From Rhodospirillales bacterium (GTDB lineage: Bacteria; Pseudomonadota; Alphaproteobacteria; Reyranellales; Reyranellaceae), in NCBI GenBank assembly GCA_009377525.1, contig WHTW01000017.1, forward strand, positions 1-64,000: 64,000 bases of DNA. Reading direction: 5' to 3'. A model generated the notes under the pieces. That model was given only the letters and a program-made list of their open reading frames with translations. It had not been told where the DNA came from and did not search any database. The position numbers and the translations under genes were made by a program. Positions 4,981 to 63,890 of this stretch are shown in pieces. Each line of letters opens with the position of its first letter. Position 1 is the first letter of the stretch.

Positions 4981-5007
4981 CGGGACAGTGTGACCGCGCA
5001 AACGAAA

Positions 5008-5033
5008 GGCCGCCGCCCTTGCAGGCGGCGGCC
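5008..5033 (+). terminator. Hairpin after the liv operon, probable terminator
   Basis: Perfect 10-bp stem GGCCGCCGCC / GGCGGCGGCC with a 6-nt loop, placed 27 nt after the livF stop and preceded by CGAAA. There is no clear T-run behind it, so it may need Rho or act with the palindrome at 5052-5093. Confidence 0.5.
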
Positions 5034-5051
5034 ATCGGTCGTTGCTGCCAG

Positions 5052-5093
5052 GGCACATTCTATCCGGCTGATTCCAGCCGGACAGAATGTGCC
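5052..5093. repeat. Solo hairpin 1 of the 122-bp element family
   Basis: Arms GGCACATTCTATCCGGCTG and CAGCCGGACAGAATGTGCC with a 4-nt loop and one A-C mismatch. It matches hairpin 1 of the 122-bp element, but hairpin 2 is absent. It begins exactly after the TAA stop of the leftward gene at 5094 and separates it from the convergent liv operon, so it may serve as a two-way transcription end. Confidence 0.7.
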
Positions 5094-5387
5094 TTAGCGC
5101 AGCGGAATGTTGATGTTGAGGCTCGGGCCGGACGGATAGCGATCGTAGCGGTCGTAACGCGGGTACACCGGCTCGTAGTAGACGGGCGCCGGGGCATAGA
5201 TCACGGGCGGCGGCGCGACATACACCGGCCGCGGCCGCACGATGCGAACGGGCTGCTCGACGATGAAGACCGGCGAGCCACGCCAGCGCTTGCCGCGGCC
5301 GCCTTCACCGCCCTCGGCCGTCGTCGCCACCGTCGCGGCAACGCCGATCACACCGATGAGCAGTCCAGCCTTTTTGGCTATCGACAT
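5094..5387 (-). CDS. Small exported Pro/Tyr-rich protein
   Basis: 97 residues. An N-terminal hydrophobic segment (AGLLIGVIGVAATVA, about 6-20) looks like a signal peptide. The rest is low complexity, rich in Pro, Tyr, Val and Arg, with PVYVAPPPVIYAPAPVYYEP and repeated YDRYD near the C-terminus. ATG 5387 is chosen for the AGGAGG 6 nt upstream. No enzymatic motif. Small exported proteins of this kind are common in alphaproteobacteria without known function. Its TAA stop abuts a solo hairpin of the element family. Confidence 0.65.
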   Translation of the reverse strand: MSIAKKAGLLIGVIGVAATVATTAEGGEGGRGKRWRGSPVFIVEQPVRIVRPRPVYVAPPPVIYAPAPVYYEPVYPRYDRYDRYPSGPSLNINIPLR

Positions 5388-5585
5388 TGCAGCCTCCTGT
5401 TTGATCGCCGGGGCAATAACGCACACGACGCCCGCCGTGTTCCGTTTGCTTGTTCACACGTTCCGCACCGATGATGCGGTGGAACGACTTCGGCTGGTGG
5501 TGGCTTTGCTGTGACCGGCGCAAGCCGGAATCATTCGCAAGAACGGCCGGCTTTACGCCGCCGCAATCCGCTGCATTCTGCGGGC

Positions 5586-6956
5586 ATGATCCTGCCGTTC
5601 GACAGCGCACTTCCCGACATCGCCTGGCCCGCCGCGGTTTCGGGCCGCGGCATGGCGACCCTCTCGCTGCTCTTCCAGCTCGAACGCACTGAGTGGTGGC
5701 CGGCCGATCGACTGCGTGACGGCCAGCAAGCGCAGCTCAAGCGCCTGCTCGACCATGCCACACGGCACGTGCCGTTCTATCGCCACCGCCTCAGCGAGCT
5801 TGCCGACGCCGACGGCGAGGCGTTCTGGCAGGGCTGGCGCGAGCTGCCGCTGCTGACGCGCCAGGACGTGCAGCGGGCCGGTGACGACCTGCTGAGCCAC
5901 GCCCTGCCCGATGGACATGGCGAGCTCACGGAAGTCTACACCTCGGGATCGACCGGCAAGCCGATCCATGCCGTGCGCAGCGACCTGTGGCTGCTGATGT
6001 GGAGCGCGGTGACGGTGCGCGAGCATCTCTGGCACGGCCGCGACTTCTCGGGGAAGCTCGCCGCCATTCGCGAATCGACGCCAGGCAAGGCGCCCCATCC
6101 CGACGGTGAGCGCCTCGAGAATTGGGGCTTCTCGACCGCGGACATCTTCCGGACCGGCCCGTGCGTCAGCCTCAACATCACGACGCCGGTCGACGACCAG
6201 CTCGAATGGCTCTGCCGCGAGGAGCCCGACTATCTGTTGACGCATCCCACGATGCTCGACCGCCTGATCCGGCGCAGCGCCGAGACCGGTCTGCGACCCA
6301 AACGGCTGCGGCAGGTGCTGACGATCTCGGAGATCTTGGCGCCCGGCCTGCGCCAGCTCTGCCGCGCCGAGTGGGGCGCGCCGGTCGTCGACACCTACAG
6401 CACGCGCGAGGCGGGCTACCTCGCCCTGCAGTGTCCGGACACGGACCACTATCACCTGCAGTCCGAGACGGCCCTGGTCGAGATCCTCGACCCCGCCGGC
6501 AAGCCCTGCGCGCCCGGCGAGATCGGGCGGGTGATCGTCACGCCCCTGCACAATCTCGCGATGCCGCTGCTGCGCTACGACGTCGGCGATCATGCCGAGG
6601 TGGGCGCCCCCTGCCCGTGCGGCCGCGACCTGCCGGTGATCCGCCGCATCCTGGGCCGGCGGCAGAACATGCTGCGCACGGCCGGGGGCGAGCGCTGGCC
6701 GCTCCTGTCGTCGGACGACATCGGCAAGCTTCTGGCGCTGGCGCCGATCCGGCAATACCAGTTCGCGCAAACCCATCCCGACCGCATCGAGGTGCGCCTG
6801 CAGGCCGCGCGGACGCTCACCGACGGGGAGGTGCGCGGCATCGTCGACTGGGCCCAGGCCAAGTTCGGCCAGGGATTCCGCATCGACCTCGCCTTCCCGG
6901 CCGAGCTTTTACGCACGGCATCGGGTAAGTTCGAGGACTTCGTCTGCCTGCTGTGA
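5586..6956 (+). CDS. Phenylacetate-CoA ligase-like (PaaK/CapK family) AMP-forming enzyme
   Basis: 456 residues. Carries the adenylate-forming motif YTSGSTGKP near residues 118-126 and a C-terminal acetyl-CoA-synthetase-like part with LLRYDVGD and CPCGRDLPVI. By family it would activate an aryl or acyl carboxylate with ATP, to CoA or another acceptor. The start at ATG 5586 is tentative; ATG 5652 is possible and neither has a strong Shine-Dalgarno. The VOC gene starts 17 nt after its stop and is probably co-transcribed. Substrate unknown. Confidence 0.78.
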   Translation: MILPFDSALPDIAWPAAVSGRGMATLSLLFQLERTEWWPADRLRDGQQAQLKRLLDHATRHVPFYRHRLSELADADGEAFWQGWRELPLLTRQDVQRAGDDLLSHALPDGHGELTEVYTSGSTGKPIHAVRSDLWLLMWSAVTVREHLWHGRDFSGKLAAIRESTPGKAPHPDGERLENWGFSTADIFRTGPCVSLNITTPVDDQLEWLCREEPDYLLTHPTMLDRLIRRSAETGLRPKRLRQVLTISEILAPGLRQLCRAEWGAPVVDTYSTREAGYLALQCPDTDHYHLQSETALVEILDPAGKPCAPGEIGRVIVTPLHNLAMPLLRYDVGDHAEVGAPCPCGRDLPVIRRILGRRQNMLRTAGGERWPLLSSDDIGKLLALAPIRQYQFAQTHPDRIEVRLQAARTLTDGEVRGIVDWAQAKFGQGFRIDLAFPAELLRTASGKFEDFVCLL

Positions 6957-9610: not shown

Positions 9611-9732
9611 GAGCACATTCCGTTCGGCTGGAATCAGCCGAACGGAATGTGCCTGTTGCAACAACTAACCCCAGTGCGCGCGATTCCGATCAGATGGAAC
9701 CGCTCGCGGTTCCATCTGATCGGAATCCGCTC
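9611..9732 (+). mobile_element. 122-bp double-hairpin TA-flanked element, copy 2
   Basis: Flanked by TA at 9609-9610 and 9733-9734. Hairpin 1 arms are GCACATTCCGTTCGGCTG and its complement; hairpin 2 carries GATCAGATGGAACCGC and its complement. Its last base (C 9732) together with TA makes the TAG stop of the leftward PAS gene. Both hairpins pair perfectly in their core. Confidence 0.88.
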
Positions 9733-11239: not shown

Positions 11240-11326
11240 CCCCCACCCTTCATTTAGATTTAGCAATCGCTGGCATCATAGCACGGTTGGGCTGTGGGCT
11301 GTGCAGCGATGCGACCGTCGCGCGAC

Positions 11327-11364
11327 TGGAGCGGAATCCGGTCAGCTGGACGGATTGTGCCCTA
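11327..11364 (-). repeat. Internally deleted remnant of the 122-bp element
   Basis: On the leftward strand this reads from the acetamidase stop TAG into GGCACAATCCGTCCAGCTG and then ACCGGATTCCGCTCCA. The first part resembles the hairpin-1 end of the element and the second its hairpin-2 end, as if the middle had been deleted. The match is imperfect. Confidence 0.5.
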
Positions 11365-12363
11365 TTCCAGGACGATCCGCGGGAAGTAGAGCGACACCAC
11401 CCAGTTCGGCATGTCGACGACCGAGCTGATGCGCAGGTCGGCGCAGACGCTGCAGAGCATGTAGGCGTCGACCGCCGAATAGCCGAAACGGCGGCCTAGA
11501 GCATTATCCGTCCGGCTGAAATCAGCCGGACGGATAATGCCCTTTGGCATTCCTATCGACACAACGCGTTTCCGATCAGATGGAACCGCCAGAGCGGTTC
11601 CATCTGATCAGAAGCCGCTCTAGCAGGTCGATCATGCCCGAGACGGCCATGCGCGCCCCCTCCATCAGGTCGGGGCCGATGCCGGTGGTGACCTCGTAGC
11701 CCTTGCCGTCGAGATGTCGGGCGACCGGACCGGGCGTCGCGAAGCGCGGCGTCCTGAGGTTGGCGCCCTTCACCAGGTCGAACTTGAGCGCGACGTCGAT
11801 CGGGCTTTCGATCGCCGTGCCGCAGACCTCGCCATCGCCTTGCGCGGCGTGGGTATCGCCGACCGAGAACAGCGCACCCAGGACCTCGATCGGCAGCCAG
11901 AGCTCGGTGCCCTCGGCGATGTCGCGCACGTCCATGTTGCCGCCGACGTTGCGCGGCGGGACGATGCTGTGCAGGCCGGGCCGTACATCGCGGACTTGAG
12001 GCTGGCGTCATAGCTCCAGTGATGCAGTGCCGCCCCGGGGAACTGGTCGGCGAGCAGGCCGAAGCCCGGGATGTTGGCGGTCCAGCCCCAGCCTGAGGGC
12101 GTGAAGGAGAGCACCGTCACCTTCAGGGCATCGCCGCGCTCGGCGCCATCGACGAATACCGGGCCGGTGACCGGGTTGACCAAGCCGAAATCGAGCTTGG
12201 CCACGTCGGCCACGGTCGAGGCCCGGTTGAGCTGGCCGCCCGAGGCGTCGGCCGTCGCGAAACTCACGCTGTCGCCGGGCGCGATGGCCAGCCGCGGCGG
12301 GAAGGCGTTGTTCCAGCCGTGATGGATGTGGTGCTTGTGGATGGCGTGGCTGTGTCCGGTCAT
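11362..12363 (-). pseudogene. Acetamidase/formamidase family gene, broken by a deletion and by the 122-bp element
   Basis: Three pieces in order make an acetamidase. 12363 to about 12000 encodes the N-terminus (HSHAIHKHHIHHGWNNAFPP). 11990-11622 encodes the middle (GGNMDVRDI; LFSVGDTHAAQGDGEVCGTAIE) in another frame. 11498-11362 encodes the C-terminus (DAYMLCSVCADLRISSVVD, MPNWVVS). Between the first and second pieces a segment of the family is missing and the frame changes, near 11990-12000. The second and third pieces are separated by the element at 11499-11620. Removing the element plus one TA joins them in frame. The enzyme would hydrolyse short amides to ammonia and acid; it cannot be made intact. 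Confidence 0.88.
11499..11620 (+). mobile_element. 122-bp double-hairpin TA-flanked element, copy 3, inside acetamidase gene
   Basis: TA at 11497-11498 and at 11621-11622 flank it. Hairpin 1 arms GCATTATCCGTCCGGCTG and complement differ from other copies at several positions, yet still pair. Hairpin 2 carries GATCAGATGGAACCGC, with a slightly larger loop. It lies in the acetamidase coding sequence after a Leu-Leu codon pair; precise removal with one TA restores the frame. Confidence 0.92.
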
Positions 12364-12438
12364 GACGTTTGGTCCCCGATTGGTCACGCTATGGGCCTGC
12401 CCGGATATCGTATTTGCAGCAGGCGACGAGGTGCGATC

Positions 12439-18841: not shown

Positions 18842-18953
18842 GCGAAAACAGGAGCCGCGATGCGAGGCACGTTTTCCTCCCGTCCTTGTTGCCGGCAATG
18901 CTGGGCGAATCGGCGAGGCTTTACCAGCGTCTTGGCGGGCGTAGACTTCGCCC

Positions 18954-28215: not shown

Positions 28216-29849
28216 GCCGCAGCCTGCCGATGCTCGAGGATCTGCTTGAGCTTGCCGCACAGCCAGACCACGACCAGCACCACGGCGGTGTAGAAGATCA
28301 GCAGGATGCTGTAGGTCGTCACCCGGCCGCTCGAGAACGAGGTGATGTCGGTGAGCGAGCTCAGGAGCTCGGGCGCGCCGATGAAGCTCGCGACCGGCGT
28401 GCCCTTGGCGGCGTTGATCAGGAAGGCCACGATCTGCGTCGCCGCGCGGCTGAGCGCGCGGCCGAACAGCCCGCTTTGCATGCCTTCGGCGCGCAGGCTC
28501 CACATCGCTTCGCCGATCGCCTGGCCGGCATTGCTGCCGTTGGCCAGCCCCAGGGCGGCGATGGCCGCGCCCAGCACCGTCGCGGTCGACAGCGCGAACA
28601 GGCCATGGGCGATGGTCGCGGCGATCACCAGGGTCAGCACGATGGGCGAGGACTGCAGCGCCACCGTGAACAGGCGCGCCGGCCAGCGCAGCAGAAACGA
28701 GCGCGAGCCCATGGCCGCGCCCAGCACGAGCGCGAAGGCCAGGGTCGCGGCGAGCGCACCGGCGATCAGGACCAGCGAGTAGACGACGCCGTCCTTGAAC
28801 AGCGACCAGGCCGGCGCCGTCTTGAGCATCGGCAAAGCGAGATCGATGCCGGTGCAGGCATCGACCCAGCGCTCGAAGCGGGTCACGTCAGGCGCGAAGC
28901 TGGTCGGCTGGAGCGCTATGTTGAGCGGCGGCAGGATGCAGCTGGGGTTGGTGGAGCCGGCATCGGTGTTGCACTCGGGCGTGCGCCAGACCTCCTGCTG
29001 CTGGCGAAGGAAGCCCAGCCGGATGCTATGCAGGCGGCCGATGTCGATGAACAGGCCGTCGCGATGGAAGACCTGGGTAATCAGCTCGAGAGCGCGCGCG
29101 AGCTCGGCGCTGCCCTGGCGCGCCACCGCCATTCCCCACGGCACCTGGGCGAAGCCGAACTTCTGGAAGTAGCGGGCGTTGAAGTCCGCGTCGGCGAAGT
29201 ACTTGGCGAAGAAGCTGTCGTCCTGGGCGGCCAGCGTGCAGGTCTGGTCTTTCAGCCGGTCGGGCAGCACGCCGGCCTCGTCGAACAGCATCAGGCGGGC
29301 GCCCTGTGACACCAGCTCGGCGTTCGAGCCGTTGCCGACGGTGACGCACACGGTGCGGCCGGGCAGGTCGAGCATGCTGGCCACGGGAAGCTCGCGCGGA
29401 CCGACGACGGTCGTCTCCGACCGGTAGTAATGCGGGCGGATGAAGCGCACCTGGCCGTCGCGCTGGGTGTTGTGGCCCATCGTGGCGATGATGAGGTCGA
29501 TGCGGTCCTCGGCCAGCAGCGGGATGCGGGTGGCGGCGTTGACGCGCACGAAGTCGACATCGACGCCCAGCATGCGGCCGATCGCCAGCGCCACGTCGAC
29601 CTCGTAGCCCTCTCGCCTGTCGCCCTTGCGTTCGGCAAACAGCGGATAGTAGTCGCGCACGCCGATGCGGATCTTCTTGGCGCACAGGATCTTGATCAGC
29701 CGGTCGACATCGGGCTGCGTGCAGGCTGCCGGCACCTCGGCGCGCGCTTGGCTGAGCAGCTCGGCCAGGGCGGCATCGGGTGGTTCGGCGTGAGCGGGGG
29801 AGAAAGCGAACAAAGCTGCGAACACCGCGACCACGCGGAACAGCCTCAC
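28212..29849 (-). CDS. Fused periplasmic binding protein and permease of an amino acid ABC transporter
   Basis: 545 residues. Signal peptide about 1-20 (ending AHA). Solute-binding domain family 3, about 30-280 (KIRIGVRDYYPLFAERKGDRREGYEVDVALAIGRML). Then about 340-540 a BPD_transp_1 permease with about 5 helices and the RxxPIVL and GTPVASFIGAPELLS motifs. Such SBP-permease fusions occur in some amino acid importers. The GTG start 29849 overlaps a dispersed repeat and has only a weak ribosome site, so it is uncertain. The downstream permease is translationally coupled; no ATP-binding gene is adjacent. Confidence 0.85.
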   Translation of the reverse strand: MRLFRVVAVFAALFAFSPAHAEPPDAALAELLSQARAEVPAACTQPDVDRLIKILCAKKIRIGVRDYYPLFAERKGDRREGYEVDVALAIGRMLGVDVDFVRVNAATRIPLLAEDRIDLIIATMGHNTQRDGQVRFIRPHYYRSETTVVGPRELPVASMLDLPGRTVCVTVGNGSNAELVSQGARLMLFDEAGVLPDRLKDQTCTLAAQDDSFFAKYFADADFNARYFQKFGFAQVPWGMAVARQGSAELARALELITQVFHRDGLFIDIGRLHSIRLGFLRQQQEVWRTPECNTDAGSTNPSCILPPLNIALQPTSFAPDVTRFERWVDACTGIDLALPMLKTAPAWSLFKDGVVYSLVLIAGALAATLAFALVLGAAMGSRSFLLRWPARLFTVALQSSPIVLTLVIAATIAHGLFALSTATVLGAAIAALGLANGSNAGQAIGEAMWSLRAEGMQSGLFGRALSRAATQIVAFLINAAKGTPVASFIGAPELLSSLTDITSFSSGRVTTYSILLIFYTAVVLVVVWLCGKLKQILEHRQAAA

Positions 29850-29955
29850 CCTGAGGAGCACGCCGAAGGCGTGCGTCTCGAAGGGTGGGAACGAGCACCT
29901 TGTCTGTTGCCCATCCTTCGAGACGCATCGCTTCGCGATGCTCCTCAGGATGAGG
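29845..29955. repeat. CCTGAGGAGC...GTCTCGAAGG-type dispersed repeat
   Basis: Left part has CCCTGAGGAGCACGCCGAAG and GTCTCGAAGG. The right part is the inverse (CCTTCGAGACGCATCG and GCTCCTCAGGATGAGG). Similar repeats are familiar from Bradyrhizobium and related alphaproteobacteria. It lies upstream of the fused permease and abuts the end of the methyltransferase gene. Confidence 0.7.
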
Positions 29956-29965
29956 TGTGCGCGCA

Positions 29966-30759: not shown

Positions 30760-30881
30760 GAGCATATTCCGTTCGGCTGGAATCAGCCGAACGGAATATG
30801 CCTGCTGCAACAACTAACCCCAGTGCGCGCATTCCCGATTTGATGGAACCGCTCGCGGTTCCATCAAATCGGGAATCGCTC
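30760..30881 (+). mobile_element. 122-bp double-hairpin TA-flanked element, copy 4
   Basis: TA at 30758-30759 and 30882-30883. Hairpin 1 arms GCATATTCCGTTCGGCTG and complement; hairpin 2 core GATTTGATGGAACCGC and complement. Its last base with the TA forms the TAG stop of the leftward cyclase gene. Confidence 0.88.
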
Positions 30882-36794: not shown

Positions 36795-36859
36795 TGTCGT
36801 TTCCTCCGAAGTCAAAGCGTATCCGCTGAGGGCGCGCCGCTCCAGTGGCGTGTCTTCGT

Positions 36860-36926
36860 CTTCCGGAGCGCGGGCCTCTGGCCCGCTCATGATTCATGAG
36901 GCGGGCCGGAGGCCCGCGCTCCAAGG
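36860..36926. repeat. Palindromic repeat, CATGATTCATG-centred (family II relative)
   Basis: Arms start CTTCCGGAGCGCGGGCCTC and end GGCCCGCGCTCCAAGG around TCATGATTCATGA. It lies between the DapA-like and UxaA-like genes of the same operon, starting directly after the DapA-like stop, a place where it could separate expression of the two. Confidence 0.75.
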
Positions 36927-37828: not shown

Positions 37829-37950
37829 GAGCGATTTCCGATCTGATTGAACCGCTCGCGGTTCAATCAGATCGGAAATGCGCGTGCGGGGGTTGGCTGT
37901 TTCGACGGGCACAATTCGCTCGGCTGATTCCAGCCGAGCGAATTGTGCTC
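37829..37950 (-). mobile_element. 122-bp double-hairpin TA-flanked element, copy 5 (reverse orientation)
   Basis: Starts with hairpin 2 (GATCTGATTGAACCGC core) and ends with hairpin 1 (GCACAATTCGCTCGGCTG and complement). TA at 37827-37828; on the other side TG at 37951-37952, one substitution from TA. Exactly 122 bp. It lies directly upstream of the DapA-like gene, so that gene's promoter must lie in or beyond it. Confidence 0.85.
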
Positions 37951-59004: not shown

Positions 59005-59017
59005 TTGCCTGACAGTG

Positions 59018-59135
59018 TATGCTAAACGGCTGGAATCAGCCGGACGGAATATGCCTGTTGAAACCCCAAATTTCCCGCGCGCGATTTTCCGATATGGTGG
59101 AACCGCGAGCGGATCCACCCTATCGGAAAACGCTC
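59018..59135 (+). mobile_element. Degenerate copy of the 122-bp element
   Basis: Hairpin-1 region (CGGCTGGAATCAGCCGG then ATATGCC) has lost its outer left arm. The linker and hairpin-2 region (TTTTCCGATATGGTGGAACC with GATCCACCCTATCGGAAAA) are present with mismatches. It ends CGCTC before TA at 59136-59137, 11 nt before the helicase start codon, between two divergent genes. Confidence 0.7.
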
Positions 59136-63768: not shown

Positions 63769-63890
63769 TGCGCGGCTTGCGATTGGATGGAACCGCTCGC
63801 GGTTCCATCCAATCGGAAACGCGTTGCGCGAAGAACCTCGACTGGTAGGCACATTCCGTCCGGCTGATATCAGCCGGACGGAATGTGCTT
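63768..63890 (-). mobile_element. Near-complete copy of the 122-bp element, reverse orientation
   Basis: Hairpin 2 core (GATTGGATGGAACCGCTCGC and complement) first, then hairpin 1 (GCACATTCCGTCCGGCTG and complement, loop ATAT-like). About 123 bp with some decayed bases. TA at 63766-63767 and 63891-63892. It fills the space between the convergent GNAT and dehydrogenase genes, the GNAT stop being at one junction and the other stop 1 nt beyond the other TA. Confidence 0.78.

Follow-up and report, generated by a model that had tools for sequence, protein, structure and literature searches.

The 122-bp element at 11499-11620 (forward strand) of the window, the whole stretch of 64 kb that was analysed, is very probably a non-autonomous transposon, a MITE that belongs with the ISRm2011-2-type elements in the IS630 family of the Tc1/mariner superfamily, a reading that takes in the putative steps of transposition and methylation proposed for it here. 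The element is an insertion in an acetamidase gene. As described in the first-pass annotation, it is bracketed by TA, at 11497-11498 and 11621-11622, and contains two hairpins. It begins with GAGC and ends with GCTC, and the hairpins have 95% complementarity each, formed by the arms 11498-11519 and 11522-11543 (hairpin A, 11498-11543, forward strand) and by the arms 11570-11589 and 11594-11613 (hairpin B, 11570-11613, forward strand), which are joined by a linker. A covariance model of the MITE built from 27 copies (R1) matched the element with 121.8 bits. The first-pass observation that removal of the element together with one TA restores the reading frame was likewise borne out: the acetamidase flanks fused with one TA gave GMIDLLGRRFGYSAVDAYMLC, which reads in a single frame.

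The acetamidase pseudogene lies on the reverse strand and is composed of an N-terminal piece (11978-12363), a middle piece in another frame (11623-11977) and a C-terminal piece beyond the element (11362-11496), all three of which matched the Pfam family FmdA_AmdA (PF03069) in order, namely at profile positions 11-135, 213-330 and 329-369. The change of frame between the first two pieces is due to a 61-bp deletion near 11977, as judged against 15 relatives; this second lesion had already been recognized as a deletion with a frame change, although it had been placed 10-20 bp away. In all 15 aligned relatives (14 of the same genus and one of the same class) the gene is uninterrupted and lacks the element. 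Gene order was compared in four relatives, G014, G012, G004 and G033, in which acetamidase is located near the equivalent of window positions 18842-18914, and the genes flanking the pseudogene here are adjacent to each other in G012, G004 and G033. Taken together with its two lesions, this indicates that the gene changed its position besides decaying, and the relocated stretch (11300-12366) has nearly clean gene boundaries with respect to the relatives compared. Moreover, what is probably the remnant of another copy with an internal deletion was seen by eye at 11329-11362 on the reverse strand, abutting the TA in the stop codon of acetamidase, where the covariance model gave a weak match (11329-11377, E 0.52).

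Duplication of the TA target was seen at sister copies of the element in the window, most cleanly at 30760-30881 (forward strand): this copy is flanked by CTCTCCTA and TATGCCGTG, and the empty site in G020, G033, G014 and G004 reads CTCTCCTATGCCGTG, with exactly one TA, while the equivalent site in G012 differs slightly from CTCTCCTATGCCGTG. Two further empty sites with a single TA were less clean, that of the copy at 9611-9732 (forward strand) in G012, where some 14 bases of the left flank are different, and that of the copy at 37829-37950 (reverse strand) in G020, where the right side in the window is TG. Among 78 distinct copies in the own genome, TA was found on the left of 55, on the right of 59 and on both sides of 40; against a background in which TA makes up 1.24% of dinucleotides, the number with TA on both sides excludes chance. 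The wider flanks were CTA on the left in 48 copies and TAG on the right in 42. The first-pass annotation had claimed a TA duplication at the acetamidase locus itself, had expected an empty-site allele with a single TA in relatives and had taken uninterrupted relatives lacking this TA to argue against insertion. Target duplication is upheld by the sister copies and the uninterrupted allele by all 15 relatives, whereas the exact insertion site in acetamidase lacks TA in every one of the 15 and reads TCA, TGA, ACA, AGA or CCA instead. The insertion of 11499-11620 is nevertheless supported by the exact restoration of the frame, the absence of the element from all 15 relatives, the empty sites of the sister copies and the IS630-type ends.

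The element belongs to a family of at least 150 full-length copies of 107-138 bp in its own genome, as estimated with the covariance model (150 of 4029 candidates were scored, and all 150 were full-length); in the BLAST search for the element in the same genome, 40 of 240 candidates were scored. Twenty stretches taken from every tenth contig, 367 kb in total, contained six copies, which extrapolates to about 120, and the true number probably exceeds 150 by little. In the window, seven full-length copies score above 70 bits, comprising, besides the acetamidase copy and the three with empty sites, one at the very start of the contig (2-123, forward strand), a decayed one at 59013-59135 (forward strand, 70.8 bits) and one at 63770-63890 (reverse strand). 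Since the family is short, dispersed in many copies and without a transposase of its own, it has the properties of a MITE. The window start (1-123) and contig C85 both begin at a copy, and breaks in the assembly apparently fall on these repeats. A partial match to the element (5004-5094) was found at the edge of a 1.9-kb stretch (4988-6927) that G033 has and G004 lacks. The window also contains two short palindromic repeats of another kind, at about 29835-29962, with many matches in G033, G012, G014 and G020, and at about 36825-36922, with many matches in G020.

The changes in the hairpin stems are paired: 99.1% of cells are paired, and 18 of the 42 stem pairs show changes on both sides, a value reached by none of 500 shuffles. 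Furthermore, the copies are almost wholly intergenic, as only three of 74 copies were in a coding-like context in a rough GC3 test, compared to 366 of 600 random positions; these 74 remained from the set of 78, from which L011 had been excluded for its internal deletion, after four copies without enough flank were left aside. The three include the acetamidase copy, which, being intragenic, is an exception in its family. Both observations would suit a conserved intergenic structure, such as a terminator or an RNA element, whose fold is maintained by selection and which is not a transposon at all. We assign only a very slight probability to this explanation: it is contradicted by the exact insertion in a gene and by the empty sites, by the absence of Rfam matches in the window, and by the patchy distribution of the MITE, which was matched in 32 of 146 genomes, the own genome included, and not in the complete genome G016 (24 candidates were scored per genome). 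The paired changes can also be explained by template switching between the hairpin arms. The perfect state in which each hairpin is kept may reflect either template switching or selection on the fold.

The parent group of this MITE was recognized in IS630-type elements that are 1033-1067 bp long, encode a DDE_3 transposase and have TA-GAGC...GCTC-TA ends. They were found in the same genus and class, and one named representative of the group is ISRm2011-2 of S. meliloti. Nineteen non-identical elements were retained from 67 loci, after removal of duplicates and of loci without a match to the three transposases or lacking TAGAGC and GCTCTA ends at a distance of 1000-1120 bp. The base before the left TA is C in 17 of the 19 and that after the right TA is G in all 19, neither of which was required by the search. 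Hairpin A is the counterpart of the transposase-side (5') terminal repeat of these elements. The likeness of the terminal repeats is partial: the ends, the CTAG context and a GANTC at position 21 are common to both, and the left 25 bases of a common MITE variant were identical to the 5' ends of the 19 elements at 12-17 positions (highest for L239 and L209), nine of the 25 being the group-defining GAGC and GAATC. Among the IS630-type elements compared, none was a parent whose ends closely match those of the MITE. The IS630-type ends, together with the symmetric C-TA...TA-G flanks and the TA duplication, also speak against a REP/BIME-like or PATE-like element whose mobility depends on recognition of both hairpins by a single-strand (HUH, Y1) transposase. 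The two hairpins near the two ends and the variable linker would fit such an origin, and a two-hairpin layout resembles relics of the IS200/IS605 type; given its ends and flanks, we consider this origin to have hardly any probability and retain the IS630-derived MITE.

A transposase of the parent group was not matched in the own genome, a draft of 208 contigs, at E 1e-10 (14 of 17 candidates scored), and the two DDE_3 loci of this genome showed only distant similarity to it. Matches to DDE_3 (IS630, seven) and to DUF4096 (IS5-type, three) in the own genome were considered as parents and rejected, as no end pair resembled that of the element. Across the genus, MITE and transposase were not associated: the transposase was present in 15 of 24 MITE-bearing and in 22 of 40 MITE-free genomes (Fisher p 0.61), in a set of 64 that takes G061-G088 as belonging to the genus and unlisted genomes as negative, with a limited number of candidates scored per genome. 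MITEs can outlive their parent, and therefore the absence of the parent transposase and of an association neither refutes the parentage nor helps it. We propose that an IS630-type transposase acting in trans would have cut the element out and pasted it at TA, and that the acetamidase copy would have landed in a C-TA-G site within the gene.

GANTC occupied the 5' (transposase-side) positions 21-25 in all 19 IS630-type elements of the relatives and the same place of the 3' end in none. Plasmid-borne elements were drawn from 60 spread rows out of 806 records, 15 of which were fetched first and a further 13 held out as a test. From the first 15, ten named elements were obtained, since no 5' end could be identified for those of Bradyrhizobium and Paracoccus, and three non-alphaproteobacterial ones were set aside for comparison; nine of these ten have GANTC at 5' position 21. 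For the 19 and the ten taken together this amounts to 28 of 29 at the 5' end and 0 of 29 at the 3' end, the sole exception being a Komagataeibacter element with GGTTC. The N of the site was A in 24, G in two, C in one and T in one of the 28 elements, whereas over the 29 elements the G, T and C were invariant and the A was kept in 28; positions 5-20 reached only 0.07-0.69 bits. The site is not the sole constrained stretch, as positions 26 and 30-32 of the 5' end are fairly conserved too (1.06-1.21 bits), and most elements have additional GANTC sites near 33 and 56. In the held-out set, Acidiphilium, Skermanella and Microvirga VF16 gave no end pair, and all ten remaining elements (nine distinct, as those of S. 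medicae and S. meliloti RRI128 have the same first 30 bases) carried GANTC at 5' position 21 and none at the 3' place; the lone 5' end from Acidiphilium has it as well. Both sets together thus yield 38 of 39 at the 5' end versus 0 of 39 at the 3' end among elements with both ends found. The transposase start was placed by eye further inward, and protein coding therefore does not explain the site. In the IS630-type 5' leaders (about positions 65-95), inspection by eye suggested that GGCTGG...GGAGGCCAGC, which lies immediately before the start of the transposase, could form a fold that masks the ribosome-binding site. The fixed, one-sided GANTC in the end of this IS630 group appears to be new: among the open-licence papers listed in the searches, no title or abstract links this IS group or CIRs (CcrM-associated intergenic repeats) to GANTC in an IS630 end, which is not proof of novelty, and the passages of PMC9296519 in which IS630, GANTC and CcrM are named concern separate contexts.

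In the MITE itself, GANTC stands at the tip of hairpin A, at position 21, in 60 of the 78 copies (58 GAATC, one GAGTC and one GACTC), and the tip of hairpin B is without it. The acetamidase copy has lost the site: its positions 21-25 (11519-11523, forward strand) read AAATC. The own genome encodes one homologue of the methyltransferase CcrM, 67% identical over residues 7-357. According to the relevant passages of two papers, promoters with methylated GANTC attract GcrA and RNA polymerase in Caulobacter (PMC3667746), and Dam methylation of GATC in E. coli confines expression of the IS10, IS50 and IS903 transposases to the time just after replication (PMC9296519). By analogy, the GANTC at position 21 might make the expression of the transposase or the recognition of the end depend on CcrM methylation and hence on the replication cycle. 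This step of the mechanism is weaker than the transposition step, because the N base within the MITE copies is no freer than its neighbours and because the site at 21 often has an inverted partner in a GATTC near position 33. The comparison of the 78 copies detected two single changes at the middle base of GANTC and ten elsewhere in the loop, and selection on GANTC within the MITE is therefore not supported by it.

The same two observations, the pairing of GATTC near 33 with the position-21 site being seen in many elements, together with the conserved bases just downstream of GANTC, would be accounted for if the element were an IS630-derived MITE with a GANTC unrelated to CcrM, which would then be part of the transposase promoter or of a protein-bound inverted repeat (GGGAATC...GATTCCC) and would have been inherited by the MITE. 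Such an explanation contests the methylation step only and shares the derivation from IS630, and we regard it as a serious possibility with a chance somewhat below even. It is at odds with the retention of GANTC at 21 where the partner at 33 has been lost (L209, L227 and L239), with the occurrence of all four bases at N across elements in an otherwise near-invariant site, and with the finding that three non-alphaproteobacterial homologues, from Serratia symbiotica, Brasilonema and Piscirickettsia, are without GANTC at 21, although these are distant and their ends less sure. A MITE copy was also observed just upstream of the ccrM homologue in G000 (contig C10, element 796-917, ccrM 1300-2361), as was an element-like match in G024 (contig C42, match 134839-134965, ccrM homologue 135122-136186); the proximity in these two genomes may be a coincidence or an old shared insertion.

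The end grammar of the MITE was found in Caulobacter as well. The pattern TAGAGC-N16-GANTC-N75..105-GCTCTA was searched in 16 genomes, with the reversed pattern as control, and had matches in eight of them: 49 in the own genome, 18 (at 16 sites) in C. vibrioides DSM 9893, 49 in OR37, 12 in Asticcacaulis and one to three in four others. It was absent from the other eight, three Caulobacter genomes included. The control gave no match save one each in two genomes, and none in DSM 9893 or OR37. The flanks of five Caulobacter copies were inspected and were C...G in four and T...G in the fifth, and for one Caulobacter copy an empty site with a single TA and small local differences was read by eye in OR37. 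The retention of GANTC at the tip of the MITE and the presence of the same design in C. vibrioides appear to be new. We put forward, as a hypothesis with not quite an even chance, that the IS630 group would be wired to the cell cycle across Alphaproteobacteria by a CcrM site 21 bp inside its transposase-side end, that CIRs would be its miniature offspring, that at the hairpin tip of the MITE duplex and cruciform would differ in their marking by CcrM, and that transposition would follow the replication fork. Jumping may be timed to cell division, and we infer a timing of CIR and MITE movement by methylation on the model of Dam control of IS10.

Among known systems, RIME of rhizobia and Bru-RS of Brucella are, like the MITE, short palindromic intergenic repeats of Alphaproteobacteria, a likeness at the level of description. 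The ISRm2011-2-type IS630 elements share with the MITE the CTA-GAGC...GCTC-TAG ends and the 5' GANTC at 21; they differ in their length of about 1.05 kb with a transposase, in having no long hairpin per end and in the extra GANTC near 33 and 56, which is absent from the MITE. RUP of Streptococcus pneumoniae, a MITE of the IS630-Spn1 type, is comparable in its size of about 107 bp, its TA target and its IS630-like ends, and in the proposal that an IS630-family element moves it in trans, with some copies in genes, as described in passages of PMC2229807 and PMC3049150. In contrast to the MITE, no DNA motif is reported for RUP in these passages, and bacterial repeats other than CIRs are stated in the former, a review of 2007, to form a stem from their two ends and not from two arms.

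The closest counterparts are the CIRs (Chen and Shapiro, 2003), which the passages of the same review devoted to them describe as two arms and a linker, with GANTC in the loop of one arm and TA termini (PMC2229807). They resemble the MITE in the two linker-joined hairpins, the GANTC at one tip, the TA termini, the intergenic location and the occurrence in Alphaproteobacteria, with the end grammar found in C. vibrioides. The stem sequences differ, the comparison being with the description in the review. CIRs are moreover reported there as not found inside genes (PMC2229807), whereas the acetamidase copy lies in a gene and is one of the few coding-like copies; intergenic location is an observation on CIRs and not a defining feature. 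Because of this architecture and its presence in Caulobacter, the MITE is classed as a CIR-type repeat, and the view that CIRs would be MITEs of this IS630 group is well supported. The parent group, the GANTC site and the connection to CIRs go beyond the first-pass annotation. In the review the role of the CIR GANTC was given as undetermined, with more needed on how CIRs move (PMC2229807); an IS630 group with GANTC at a fixed 5' place is a candidate answer to both questions, and it predicts that transposition in many Alphaproteobacteria would be timed by DNA methylation, as Dam does for IS10, IS50 and IS903.
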